64,000 bases of DNA. Source: Archaeoglobaceae archaeon. GTDB lineage: Archaea > Halobacteriota > Archaeoglobi > Archaeoglobales > Archaeoglobaceae. Where the stretch lies: positions 1 to 64,000 of the forward strand of contig JALWDS010000037.1 in the NCBI GenBank assembly GCA_027036775.1, written 5' to 3'. The translations under genes were made by a program, and so were the position numbers. Position 1 is the first letter of the stretch, and the number at the start of each line of letters is the position of its first letter. Positions 17,061 through 22,103 of this stretch are shown here, piece by piece. The notes beneath the pieces are model-generated. The model ran no database searches. It saw only the letters and a program-made list of their open reading frames with translations, and was not told the origin of the DNA.

Positions 17061-17152
17061 CCTTCTTTGAGGGTGCTCTGACCGTGCCCGATGACACCAA
17101 CCGTAGTTCCCCTGCGGGGAACCTTCCCGCTAAAGCGGGAAGAGGAGGTCAG
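15906..17152 (-). mobile_element. IS605-group (IS1341-like) TnpB-only element
   Basis: Contains tnpB and no tnpA. The end upstream of tnpB (17061-17152) holds two perfect hairpins, TTCCCGCTTTAGCGGGAA and TTCCCCGCAGGGGAA, and GGGCACGGTCAGAGCACCC, and begins TGACCTCCTC. The end downstream of tnpB reads AAAAGGCGAGACTTCTAACC. The same two ends flank a short element at 18231-18431, and related ends occur at 29520-30810 and 36524-36716. It is inserted between psmA and sbds; its first three bases TGA are also the psmA stop codon. Boundaries were inferred by comparing copies. Confidence 0.8.
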
Positions 17153-17889
17153 TTCCCCAACTCCCGCCTTATCACCTCGTTGGCCTTATCAACGTAATCC
17201 TTTACCTCTTCAACACTCAAAATTCTGAACATCTTATCCTCAACCCTTATAACTCCAACCTCTATTCCGTCATACGTGAGTTCGCTCTCAATGGCCTTAC
17301 CCATCGCTATCATAGCCTTAACAATCGCGTCGTCCAAACTCATGTTGTCATCGTACTCCTTTTCGAAATACTCCATCACAACGTTTCTTCCAGCTCCTAT
17401 TGCGGTAGCTTTGTATTCCAGCAGAGCTCCGCTTGGATCCGTTTCATACAATCGGGGTTTTTCATCGATTCCCGCTATCAACAGAGATACACCGAAAGGT
17501 CTAACCCCACCGAACTGTGTGAACTGCTGTTTGAAGTCGCAAATCCTCTTGGCCAAATCCTTAACGCTTATAGGCTCGTCGTAAGTTAAACGGTTTATTT
17601 GAGCCTCTAACCTCGCCCTATCTATTAAAATCCTCGCATCCGCAACCAATCCGGATGTTGCTGCACCTATGTGATCGTCAATGATGAAAATCTTCTCTAT
17701 CGTATCCGGCTCCAAGAGCTTACTCGTAACCCTTCTGTCAGCAACCAACAAAACGCCTTCCTTCGTTTTAACCCCTATTGCCGTCGCACCTCTCTTTACC
17801 GCCTCCCTCGCATACTCAACTTGGAACAACCTTCCGTCTGGACTGAATACCGTTATAGCCCTATCGTATCCCATCTGAGGCAGATGCAT
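17149..17889 (-). CDS. psmA: Proteasome alpha subunit
   Basis: 246 residues. The N-terminal gate region [20 protein letters not shown] is the alpha-subunit signature, followed by [10 protein letters not shown]. It forms the outer heptameric rings of the 20S proteasome, with no catalytic Thr. It sits between rnp2 and sbds as in other euryarchaea. The stop TGA (17149-17151) is shared with the first bases of the TnpB element; the reading frame and the C-terminal residues VIRRELGN look normal. Confidence 0.95.
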
Positions 17890-18230: not shown

Positions 18231-18431
18231 GGCTGAAGGCCTCGCCTTTCAAGAGTAAAAAAACCCGCTTTTTCCGAAACATTTTTATTCTTCCTCATCT
18301 TAACACCTCTTAGAGGGTCGCTCTGACCCGGCCCAATGACCCTAACCGAAGGCTATGACCCCGTCGTGAGACGGTCGCGAGCCGGTTCGCCTATGGCGAA
18401 CCTTCCCGCTAAAGCGGGAAGAGGAGGTCAG
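18231..18431 (-). mobile_element. Small non-autonomous relative of the TnpB element (MITE-like)
   Basis: About 200 bases with the same ends as the TnpB element at 15.9-17.2 kb: TGACCTCCTC and the identical 18-base hairpin TTCCCGCTTTAGCGGGAA at one end, and TTGAAAGGCGAGGCCTTCAG at the other, with the tnpB coding part missing. Extra hairpins include GGTTCGCCATAGGCGAACC. It lies between the Ig-like membrane protein gene, whose TGA stop is its first three bases, and rnp2. It could be mobilised in trans, but no TnpA is visible in the window. Confidence 0.8.
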
Positions 18432-18811
18432 ACGATCACCATAATCAGATACAAAATTATTAAAAGGACTATTAAAACGATTACAGCTATTGTGCCAATT
18501 CTCTGTATTCTTTTCTTTTCCCTTTCATCCATGAACTCTATTTCCATCTCCTTCTTACATCCCTCAATTATCACCTCGACCTTCCTCTTCCTCTTGACGT
18601 TCGAGCTAAAGGTGAATTCGAACGAACCGTTTGAATGAGTGTAGACGGTTCCGTAGTTCATTCCATCGACAAGAAAGTTAACCTTGGTCTTCAAAGGCAA
18701 CCACATCTTTCTCTTCTCATCGTAAACTTGAGCGTATCCCCTAATCACCACTTCTTCCCCAACAACTGGTTTCTTGTCGCTCGCATGTAGTCCAGCTATT
18801 CTAACCTTCAT
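18428..18811 (-). CDS. Membrane-anchored Ig-like domain protein, unknown function
   Basis: 127 residues. Residues 1-90 form a beta-rich domain (EEVVIRGYAQVYDEKRK, VNFLVDGMNYGTVYTHSNGSFEFTF), resembling bacterial Ig-like or carboxypeptidase-regulatory-like folds. One C-terminal transmembrane helix follows (IGTIAVIVLIVLLIILYLIM). There is no N-terminal signal, so it is tail-anchored, orientation unknown. Its ATG overlaps the rfcS stop by four bases, indicating co-transcription. Confidence 0.65.
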   Translation of the reverse strand: MKVRIAGLHASDKKPVVGEEVVIRGYAQVYDEKRKMWLPLKTKVNFLVDGMNYGTVYTHSNGSFEFTFSSNVKRKRKVEVIIEGCKKEMEIEFMDEREKKRIQRIGTIAVIVLIVLLIILYLIMVIV

Positions 18812-21060
18812 GACAACCTCTTGCCTATCGTCGCAAGGTAGGCGAGGTATGCATCCAACTGAATTCTGTCGTGAGCTCCTTCTGTCAATCTGAAGTCTAT
18901 CTCACCCAGCTTGTCAATGAGCATGACCTTGACCCTCTCGTCCAAGTTCGATGCCAGTATTTCTCTGAAAAGCTGAGAGACTATGTCCTCTCCGCTCATT
19001 CCGTATTCCACCATCATCCTGTCCAAAATCTGCCTTGCCTCCAAGAACTTCCCGCTTAAAGCGGTCTCTATGAGCTTTCTCATCTCCTCGGGTCTTGCCG
19101 TAGCGGTAATCTGATATATCGCCTCAGCGGTAACAACTTCCCCTAAGGCTGAGGCACCTTGCAAAGCGTTTATAGCCTTTCTGAAATCTCCGTTTGCAAT
19201 GTAAACCAAGGCATCTAGGGCATCTTCCGTAATCTTAACACCTTCACTTTCAGCAATTTCCTTTAACCTCCTCTTCATTGCATCTGGGGGTATGGGTTTG
19301 AACTTAAAAACAGCACATCTCGATTGAATCGGCTCTATAATTCTGCTGATGTAGTTACAGCTCAGTATGAATCTACAAGTCTTGGAGTACATCTCCATCG
19401 TCCTTCTCAAGGCAGCTTGGGCATCTGGAGTTAGTGCATCAGCCTCATCCAAAAATATTATCTTGAAGGGAGCACCACCTATTGGAGCTGTCCTTGCAAA
19501 CTCCTTTATCTTGTGCCTAACGACATCTATGCCTCTCTCATCCGAATTGTGCAGCAGAACTGGAATCTCTCCAGCGAAGAACATCTCATTGTTTGGCACT
19601 GAAACGTCGTAAACGTAATCGTTGTAGTCTATCAATTCGATTCTCTTAACTTTTAGAGCGTGTAAATCTGTGTAAGCGAGCTTTTTGATCAATTCAAACA
19701 CTTTCCTCTCGTTTTCAGAAAGCCTACTCTCATCAACCATCCTAACGATCCTCTTAAGCACATCTTTTGAAACCCTCTCTTTACCTTCGTAGAGTTGATG
19801 TCTCAACTCGTATCTCCAATTTCCATCAATTTTGTCCTTTATCTTTTCAAGCAGAGATAAGATGGGTTTCGCCGGTAAAAGATCGCTCTTCTTCCAGTTC
19901 ATTCCACCTTTCCAGATCAATCTAACCTCCCTATCGAATATCGAGCTTTCAATTCCAGAAATCCTTGCAAGCCAAGCTATGTCGATTAGCAAATTCCTTG
20001 AAACTGAGGTTATTCTGACGACATTGCTCCACTCACCATAACCGTCGCCATCGGCTAAGCCTTTGAGATAGGACAATCTGTTCTCAAGCTTTGCTGAGAA
20101 CATGAAGCTTGGAACCCGCTTGTTCTTAGCCTTAAATCCATTTCCATCGTAGAAGTAGTCTCTGAAGAACTTAGCCAACTGTGTGCTCAAAATTCTGATC
20201 TGCTTGGCTGAAAGTCTTTTTCTGTTAAATCCAGAAGTTGTGTAGTTTTCGTAAACGCTCAAATTGTGATGTCCAGCGAAAGTTCTTATTTTCTCTATCA
20301 AACCTTGTTCTCTTGCGTTTATGATCTGACCAGAAGTGTTACCTCTAAATCCTACAGCACCTTCCGCTGTGTATAAACCAAAAACCCACGCACTATTTTC
20401 GTTTAACTCCAGATCGTCTATCACAGCTGTTCTTGAAGTTAAAGCAGTTCTGTATTCTGAAAGACTTAAAACGTTAAGATTGCCTTTGAGTTCTGCGGTA
20501 AAGCTTAGAAGGAAGTCTCCTTCCTTAATTTCATTAGCCTTAATAGTCTTTAATCCATCTTCGCTTAGAATCATCACCGAGTGATTTCCAGTCAACTCTA
20601 TTACTCCACCACCTTCCAAGTGGACTCTCAGGATTTTGGGAACCCAATGTCTGATTAAGGCTGAAACCTTGGCCCATACAACCTTGTAGTCTTTGTCAAT
20701 CGTTAGAACCTCCAAGTTATCCACTTTAACGTAACCCTCATCGTTCTTGAAGTACATTCTGTCGAGTTCTTCAAACGTTACTCGCTTAACTTCACCGTCG
20801 ATTTTGATTAGAATAGGCGTATCCTTTGAAACCGATGCATTCAACTCAATGAAGTTATCCCTCCAGTGCTCTCCAAACAAATCCCTCGTTAGAGCTATTG
20901 CCGTAGCGGTTTTACCAGTTCCCGGAGGGCCAGCAAAGAGCAAGTGGGGAATGTTCTTCTGCTTAACGTAATTCTTTAATCTCTTGACAACTTCCTCCTG
21001 ATCGACGATTTCATCTAAGGTCTTAGGTCTGTACTTCTCAACCCATATCTCCGCTTCCAT
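18808..21060 (-). CDS. rfcS: Replication factor C small subunit with intein
   Basis: 750-residue precursor from the ATG at 21060 (MEAEIWVEKYRPKTL); spliced length 320, normal for RfcS. Exteins show Walker A GPPGTGKT (44-51), DEAD box FLDEADALT, and the SRC motif in IQSRCAVF. The intein (19546-20835, 430 residues) splits ELNA from SDERG. RfcS forms the clamp loader that opens PCNA at primer ends. An earlier ATG at 21117 would put 19 residues upstream of the conserved start and beyond the TATA box, so it is rejected. Confidence 0.95.
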   Translation of the reverse strand: MEAEIWVEKYRPKTLDEIVDQEEVVKRLKNYVKQKNIPHLLFAGPPGTGKTATAIALTRDLFGEHWRDNFIELNASVSKDTPILIKIDGEVKRVTFEELDRMYFKNDEGYVKVDNLEVLTIDKDYKVVWAKVSALIRHWVPKILRVHLEGGGVIELTGNHSVMILSEDGLKTIKANEIKEGDFLLSFTAELKGNLNVLSLSEYRTALTSRTAVIDDLELNENSAWVFGLYTAEGAVGFRGNTSGQIINAREQGLIEKIRTFAGHHNLSVYENYTTSGFNRKRLSAKQIRILSTQLAKFFRDYFYDGNGFKAKNKRVPSFMFSAKLENRLSYLKGLADGDGYGEWSNVVRITSVSRNLLIDIAWLARISGIESSIFDREVRLIWKGGMNWKKSDLLPAKPILSLLEKIKDKIDGNWRYELRHQLYEGKERVSKDVLKRIVRMVDESRLSENERKVFELIKKLAYTDLHALKVKRIELIDYNDYVYDVSVPNNEMFFAGEIPVLLHNSDERGIDVVRHKIKEFARTAPIGGAPFKIIFLDEADALTPDAQAALRRTMEMYSKTCRFILSCNYISRIIEPIQSRCAVFKFKPIPPDAMKRRLKEIAESEGVKITEDALDALVYIANGDFRKAINALQGASALGEVVTAEAIYQITATARPEEMRKLIETALSGKFLEARQILDRMMVEYGMSGEDIVSQLFREILASNLDERVKVMLIDKLGEIDFRLTEGAHDRIQLDAYLAYLATIGKRLS
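19546..20835 (-). other. RfcS intein with LAGLIDADG-type homing endonuclease
   Basis: 430 residues inserted after Ala75 in the sensor region ELNA/SDERGID. It begins with Ser (SVSKDTPILIKIDGEV), ends VLLHN and is followed by Ser, so it is a Ser1 intein with Asn cyclisation and Ser+1 nucleophile. Block B is GNHSVMIL. Two DOD motifs, WVFGLYTAEGAV and YLKGLADGDGYG, indicate a possibly active homing endonuclease (the first has Glu where the consensus has Asp). Splicing residues are complete. Confidence 0.9.
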
Positions 21061-21078
21061 TGTATTAAGGAACGCAGG

Positions 21079-21092: not shown

Positions 21093-21133
21093 TTAAGCGA
21101 AAGCTTTTAACTTGCAACTCTCAAAACATATCA

Positions 21134-21193
21134 AGCCCGCAAACCCGGCGGGGTTGAAAAGCATGAGACCCCGTGGGCTCCGCGCGGGCTACA
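21134..21193 (+). ncRNA. Candidate H/ACA guide sRNA
   Basis: A GC-rich island in an AT-rich spacer. AGCCCGC (21134-21140) pairs perfectly with GCGGGCT (21184-21190), immediately followed by ACA (21191-21193). Inside, CGGGGT (21149-21154) pairs with ACCCCG (21168-21173) around TGAAAAGCATGAG, which has the UGA...GA pattern of an archaeal K-loop. About 16-17 nt separate the upper stem and ACA, near the family spacing. Flanking strands AAACCCG and GGGCTCC would be the two guide arms. A possible TATA (GAAAGCTTTTAA, near 21100) lies about 25-30 bases upstream. Target not identified. Confidence 0.55.
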
Positions 21194-22103
21194 ACTTGCC
21201 CATCACGTGGTTTGCAGTGGTTCTTACGTATCTCCCCTTTTCGGCACAGACGTGTATGAGAACGTATCTTATCTCTGGTATCTTATCCATCAACACTTTT
21301 GCGATCTTTTTGGTTAGCTCGTCAGCCTCTTTGACAGTCATATCTTCTCTTACGGTCACATGCATATCTACATGCAAGGCTTTTTCACCAATGTAAATCG
21401 CTATGACATCGTGCACATCCAAAACCTCTGGAAATTCTTTAACGATTCTCTCAACTCTCTCGTAAAATTCGCCACTTGGACTTTTACCAAGCAAATAGCT
21501 GACGTTCTCTTTAAAAAGCCTGTATCCGTTCCTGCAGATCAAGAGAGCTATGAATACCGTAAAAATTCCGTCCGCAACGGGATACCCCACTAAAGAAAAT
21601 AGAACACCCGACAAAGCTCCAAAATTCGCAAGAACGTCGTTTAAAAGTTCGGCTTTTGTAACCTTCTCAGCCACACTATCCTTTTCAAAAATCCTGTAGA
21701 GGATTAAAGAGGAAAAAAGACCGAAAATTAAAACAAGAATGGCTAATTCGGGAAATTTACCAATCGTGGGACTCACGATTTTTTCAATACCCTCTCGCAC
21801 AAGCTCAAACGCTACGACGGTTATAAAAACGACGGAAACCGTAACCCCTCCAACGTTCTGAATTAAACCGTGTCCCAGTTGGTGTGTGTAGTCTGGGGGT
21901 TTCTCAGCCAACCTCTTGGTGTAGATTACAGTTATTAGAATGAATATATCGATTAAGTTGTGGAGGAATTCAGCGAGCATGACGAGAAATCCCGTAAGAA
22001 TGTAAACCAACAGCTTTAAAAAAGCTATAATAGAATAGGATATCAGAGTTATTTTCATCCTCCAATCGAAACTTAAATATTCAATCCTAACACTTTTAGG
22101 CAT
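21189..22103 (-). CDS. Cation efflux (CDF) family transporter
   Basis: 304 residues. Six predicted membrane helices in the first 210. Metal-site residues: FLHNLIDIFIL (HxxxD in TM2) and ELLNDVLANFG (D in TM5); a second-site segment KPPDYTHQLGHG lies in the loop. The cytosolic C-terminal domain has the ferredoxin-like fold with DVHDVIAIYIGEKALHVDMHVTV. It exports a divalent metal such as Zn, Fe or Mn in exchange for protons; the metal is not decidable. Its TAG stop overlaps the 3' end of the candidate H/ACA RNA on the other strand. Confidence 0.9.
   Translation of the reverse strand: MPKSVRIEYLSFDWRMKITLISYSIIAFLKLLVYILTGFLVMLAEFLHNLIDIFILITVIYTKRLAEKPPDYTHQLGHGLIQNVGGVTVSVVFITVVAFELVREGIEKIVSPTIGKFPELAILVLIFGLFSSLILYRIFEKDSVAEKVTKAELLNDVLANFGALSGVLFSLVGYPVADGIFTVFIALLICRNGYRLFKENVSYLLGKSPSGEFYERVERIVKEFPEVLDVHDVIAIYIGEKALHVDMHVTVREDMTVKEADELTKKIAKVLMDKIPEIRYVLIHVCAEKGRYVRTTANHVMGKL

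Follow-up and report, generated by a model that had tools for sequence, protein, structure and literature searches.

What is the nature of a short GC-rich island lying between two protein-coding genes of a heat-loving Archaeoglobaceae archaeon, and if it encodes an RNA, what might that RNA do? The window analysed here is a stretch of 64,000 nucleotides, and a first-pass annotation had proposed that the island between rfcS and a CDF transporter gene is an H/ACA guide RNA. The base composition is as described: GC content is ~0.65 in the element, whereas most 60-base windows nearby lie at 0.33-0.45, the exception being a value of 0.57 in one 60-base window 240 bases upstream. The placement is also correct, except that one end of the element runs into a gene. 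The intein-bearing gene for the replication factor C small subunit (RfcS) occupies 18808-21063 on the minus strand, and that for the CDF (cation efflux) transporter occupies 21189-22103, also on the minus strand. The CDF stop codon (21189-21191), on the opposite strand, shares positions with the last stem bases and the ACA box of the element.

We conclude that 21134-21193 on the plus strand is very probably an unannotated archaeal box H/ACA guide RNA. With a probability of close to nine in ten, we read the sequence as a plus-strand, single-hairpin box H/ACA guide RNA gene that presents U927 of 16S rRNA for pseudouridylation. The class of element is already known; what is new is the RNA family together with the target assigned to it in Archaeoglobi and a mild geometric variant. 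In the openly accessible literature surveyed, no title or abstract reported the element.

Two other features of this region are recorded here in their own right. The intein within the RfcS gene (gene at 18808-21063, minus strand) contains a LAGLIDADG homing endonuclease domain, and two HgcC-family RNAs (RF00062) lie ~1.2 kb apart on the plus strand at 17069-17165 and 18313-18444, scoring 65.8 and 72.5 bits against a gathering threshold of 50.

Fold and parts of the hairpin

The core hairpin with its ACA box spans 21134-21193 on the plus strand, as indicated by its predicted fold, by a search with an architecture descriptor and by two covariance models (R1 and R2). Its minimum free energy is −31.7 kcal/mol (z = −3.05), a value reached by two of 200 shuffled sequences. 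The lower stem has the 7 bp originally claimed for it, with AGCCCGC (21134-21140) paired to GCGGGCU (21184-21190), and the ACA box (21191-21193) follows directly on the 3′ side. An upper stem of 6 bp had been suggested; the stem is present, but it is better described as eight positions formed by GCGGGGUU (21148-21155) and GACCCCGU (21167-21174), including a U·G beside the loop and a G·U at the base. Covariation bears on the assignment of both stems, and the geometry of the relatives on that of the upper stem. The K-loop-like UGA...GA noted earlier corresponds to sheared GA/GA pairs (21156-21157 and 21165-21166) around a 7-nt loop, AAAGCAU, and the same GA/GA arrangement is found in all 20 relatives. 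This K-loop (21156-21166) would be the site of L7Ae binding. With the two sheared G-A pairs added to the eight positions, the GA stem totals ten pairs.

Between the stems lie the two unpaired strands of 7-9 nt that had been recognized at the outset, which form the guide strands of the pocket. These are AAACCCG (21141-21147) on the 5′ side and GGGCUCCGC (21175-21183) on the 3′ side. AAACC is predicted to pair with 16S GGUUU downstream of the target uridine, and from its second base the 3′ strand would pair as GGCUCCGC with 16S GUGGAGCC upstream of that uridine.

The descriptor specified a GA..GA loop of 5-8 nt, an upper stem, an ANA at 13-16 nt (a range chosen after seeing this element) and a lower stem of at least 6 bp. 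On both strands of the 64-kb window it matched one place, this hairpin, and it gave at least one match in three of 100 random windows generated by an order-1 Markov process. We regard the hairpin as real. No Rfam family reached its gathering score on the element. Under a loose threshold, HgcG (RF00064), itself an H/ACA RNA, was the sole related family to appear, and its match fell far below the cut-off (6.8 bits, where gathering requires 77).

A weak candidate for a TATA-like promoter, AAGCTTTTAACTT (21101-21113, plus strand), is centred ~28 nt upstream of the hairpin and is possibly a TATA element at the right distance. An A/T-rich stretch lies at a similar upstream distance in most of 20 loci, judged by eye rather than statistically.

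Relatives, covariation and strand

BLAST searches of 40 genomes gave six clear matches, the element itself included, and nothing similar was found in plasmid records. A 20-base match to the 3′ half (query 56-75), present in most genomes by BLAST, was set aside as a chance resemblance to rRNA rather than homology; the similar match at locus L007 reads as 16S, and that in the element's own genome lies inside the 16S gene.

Covariance model R1 was built from three sequences and R2 from 20. At E ≤ 0.1, R1 matched 33 and R2 matched 39 of 55 genomes of the family. R2 gave E values of 1e-16 or better in four genomes (the element's own, G002, G010 and G058) and of about 1e-11 or better in 20 of the 55; by sequence these 20 are one guide family, and all of them contributed to R2. 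The element is conserved beyond its own genome. Among the R2 matches weaker than ~1e-11, two are a second hairpin of the g12 genomes and one is a divergent guide in G049, and most of the weaker matches inspected belong to a different H/ACA guide, distinguished by its pocket strands. When 392 genomes of the phylum were searched, 26 matched at E ≤ 0.01, all from the same class (24 from the family, one from elsewhere in the order and one from elsewhere in the class). The match in G026, which is a class-level relative from outside the family and had no part in the model, has E = 5e-13. Several genera among the 55 family genomes carry no clear orthologue of the guide, including one that we take to be that of A. 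fulgidus, even though the 16S site is unaltered in the genomes where it was readable; this weighs against the guide assignment.

Other hairpins of related type were observed in these genomes. A second H/ACA guide family comprises loci L050, L052-L059, L074, L079, L080, L085 and L086, from several other genera and G026, with pocket strands of about CCCUCAC and CGGUUGG; scanned against our organism's own 23S rRNA, its first-ranking uridine is U1458, with U2681 in GACCG[UC]GUGAG second. A third, H/ACA-like hairpin occurs in genus g9 (L084 and L087, around 1001-1062, GCCCGCCAGCCAUGC...UUCCACACGGCGGGCUACA), and its best-scoring site is 16S U1022. The second hairpin carried by both g12 genomes (L060 and L061) resembles the present guide, has pocket strands AGAACCCC and GGGCACAG, and finds its best-scoring site in our organism's own rRNA at 16S U75.

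Covariation was assessed in an alignment (A5) of 20 rows, 18 of them distinct. Ten of the 30 R1 matches in the earlier alignment A4 were left out: L048, the divergent guide of G049, and L050 and L052-L059 as members of another guide family. Conserved pairing in the relatives, proposed as a check on the element, is found: 10 of the 15 pairs, distributed over both stems, have changed on both sides, and 94% of 266 cells are paired, although these counts lean towards the structure because the alignment was fitted to the model. A fairer comparison is provided by sliding the pairing partners; the covariation score is 0.470, against 0.063-0.190 with slid partners. A5 contains 20 further pair types, which does not stand out from its shuffles (mean 19.4). 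All 20 curated relatives have seven or eight stem positions (eight in 19 of them, seven in G014), the GA/GA pairs and a loop of 5-7 nt. On this pattern of substitution, we take the hairpin structure to be under selection.

The overlap of the hairpin with the CDF stop codon is what would be seen if this were the structured 3′ end of the CDF mRNA, a hairpin acting on the minus strand in processing or stability, with no RNA gene on the plus strand. The minus strand folds nearly as stably (−31.1 kcal/mol), as this explanation would need. Yet pairing is worse on the minus strand, at 227 of 266 cells compared with 250 of 266 on the plus strand, and there are only 3 G-U cells on the minus strand against 26 on the plus strand. 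The K-loop, the ANA and the guide features are sensible on the plus strand only. The genomic context points the same way. The CDF/RfcS neighbourhood is kept in seven of the 20 loci, and the remaining 13 have the guide but lack CDF, RfcS and GatB alike within the 3-kb locus; the RNA is therefore retained on its own. We consider such a hairpin of the CDF mRNA very improbable, and favor a guide RNA gene read from the plus strand. Where the two genes do meet, CDF adjoins the guide in all seven of the loci L030-L036, and an antisense TAG stop of CDF is overlapped by the ACA end of the guide at four loci by eye (the element's own, G002, G010 and G020).

The archaeal H/ACA design first proposed for the element has held up in its K-loop and GA-stem geometry, its covariation, its plus-strand bias, its retention and an rRNA target shared by the relatives. 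It departs from that geometry in one respect, in that the ACA lies 16 nt away in the element's own lineage, and this is best considered together with the target.

The predicted target and the geometry of the pocket

Sequences like GGAGCCC-UN-CGGGUUU in rRNA had been put forward as targets. An rRNA target is supported, but the exact sequence was one nucleotide off on each side. Taken literally, as GGAGCCCTNCGGGTT, it has no match in the genome within one mismatch and six weak, scattered matches with two, and it was abandoned for the sequence on which the homologues converge, GGAGCC-UG-CGGUUU in 16S rRNA.

Thirteen guide variants were scored by nearest-neighbour stacking against the 643 uridines of our organism's own 16S and 23S rRNA, which was used in place of the relatives' rRNA. 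16S U927, in GGGUGGAGCC[UG]CGGUUUAAUU, has the best mean of all 643 (−18.9, the next being −14.0), ranking first for nine of the 13 variants and second for four. An initial scan of the own guide in strict register had not singled out U927, and the offsets of the flexible scan were picked after this first look; the same offsets were applied in a permutation control with the 12 non-duplicate guides. None of 400 sets with permuted guide positions reached the score of U927, the best being −16.5 and the mean −9.7, compared with −18.8 observed. U927 also ranks first for the held-out guide of G026.

The target site is identical in 14 of 18 relatives' SSU loci scanned, and a fifteenth, G022, has one downstream base changed. 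Of 18 genomes searched by pattern, three contain the site and the rest gave no match, probably because their 16S sequence is missing. Since the site is intact in G040, G016 and G022, genomes in which this guide was not detected, target conservation alone is no evidence. Eight Thermococcus-type genomes gave no SSU match; a degenerate guide pattern matched all eight, generally more rarely than its reversed control, and is uninformative.

According to the available text of PMC7005279, position 938 of P. abyssi 16S is E. coli 966. Our U943 is the match to this position, and U927 lies 16 nt upstream of it; in E. coli, U950 is 16 back from G966, in a 16S copy annotated as longer than usual. It follows by position counting that U927 would correspond to S922 of P. 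abyssi and U950 of E. coli, provided that there is no indel. S922 of P. abyssi is a modified position listed among true H/ACA targets in the accessible part of PMC4652768.

These scans also bear on the possibility that the RNA is a genuine H/ACA guide whose real target is another RNA (a different rRNA site, a tRNA or an mRNA), the match to 16S U927 being secondary. The own guide pairs well in unshifted register with SSU 75 and SSU 1110, and its fit at U927 requires a one-nucleotide offset. Two structural relatives do not prefer U927, which ranks 9 for G025 and 11 for G049, and tRNAs and mRNAs were covered by one strict pattern alone. Against this, U927 leads by ~5 kcal/mol across the 13 guide variants, its score was never matched by permuted guides, and, by counting, the corresponding position in P. 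abyssi is a true target (PMC7005279 and PMC4652768, in the text available). We judge a different target to be unlikely; the predicted target of the guide is most likely 16S U927.

In the available text of PMC4652768, productive H/ACA folds have the ANA 14-15 nt from the GA stem, and a 3-nt target spacer is called an anomaly. In nine of our 20 relatives the spacing between the 8-position stem and an ANA is exactly 14 nt, and in four it is 13 or 15 nt, depending on the ANA chosen. In seven of the 20, namely the element and six near relatives from its own genus and g9, 16 nt separate the ACA from the GA stem, counted strictly as ten pairs. Both guide strands carry an insertion in this lineage, a C in the 5′ strand and a G in the 3′ strand. 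An extra C-G pair formed across a bulged G would reduce the distance to 15 nt and place GGCUCC opposite GGAGCC, with a spacer of 3 nt. Guides of the G050, G007, G060 and G026 type have a 2-nt spacer and no mismatch next to the U; the own-type guide needs a one-nucleotide offset or a 3-nt spacer at U927. We infer that the guide of this lineage remains functional with its shifted geometry, and this is the weakest step in the argument.

A distance of 16 nt, outside the productive range given in the accessible part of PMC4652768, could alternatively mark a decayed or non-productive H/ACA copy that persists because the CDF terminus overlapping it is constrained. However, the same arrangement is common to seven genomes of two genera, two-sided changes occur at the innermost lower-stem pair and in the upper stem, as under selection on the RNA, and the gene overlap is limited to the last bases. 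A decayed copy is thus most unlikely, and we retain the reading of a guide directed to U927. More tentatively, this might be an Archaeoglobi-wide guide for 16S U950 in E. coli numbering, with one lineage tolerating a shifted pocket and some genera having lost or replaced the guide while the rRNA site remained unchanged; we hold this to be possible rather than probable. If true, paired C/G insertions would extend the GA stem by way of a bulged pair, with no loss of target by either guide strand, and the published rules of 14-15 nt and a 2-nt spacer would be looser than stated.

Proposed function and comparison with known guide RNAs

In the mechanism that we propose, an autonomous small gene on the plus strand would be transcribed to give a single-hairpin box H/ACA guide RNA. 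By analogy with the known family the K-loop should serve as the binding site of L7Ae, and the lower stem and ACA would lie on Cbf5-Nop10-Gar1 in the assembled RNP; Nop10 is encoded in the genome. The strands of the internal loop would pair with 16S GGAGCC-U-G-(C)GGUUU, so presenting U927 to Cbf5, where it would be isomerised to pseudouridine.

The element brings to light a guide RNA family that has good structural support and no Rfam match at gathering score, and it ties this family to one particular 16S uridine, already a known target in Pyrococcus. The natural series of 14, 15 and 16 nt to the ACA, with and without a spacer shift, lets the strictness of H/ACA geometry rules be tested, and the family should be useful for annotating Archaeoglobi genomes.

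The closest comparison is with the Pyrococcus abyssi H/ACA guides Pab19, 21, 35/HgcF, 40/HgcG, 91, 105/HgcE and 160, in particular with whichever of the P. abyssi guides directs S922. Like these, the element has a K-loop or K-turn, a 10-pair GA stem, guides in an internal loop and an ANA box, and by position counting its predicted target is at the S922 position. It differs in having no detectable sequence relation to them beyond the sub-threshold HgcG match (6.8 bits against 77), and in an own-lineage ACA distance of 15-16 nt, compared with 14-15 nt. The Archaeoglobus fulgidus guides Af4.1-4.3, Af46 and Af190 belong to the same archaeal class and the same class of RNA, with validated folds, but are set apart by their targets; none of those listed in the available text of PMC4652768 (S1004, S1167, L2601, L2639 and L1970/L1364) is the U927 position. 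With the eukaryotic H/ACA snoRNAs the element has in common the guide mechanism and the Nop10/Cbf5-type enzyme family, while these snoRNAs, as described in the accessible part of PMC7991803, are without the K-turn or K-loop that the element here possesses.
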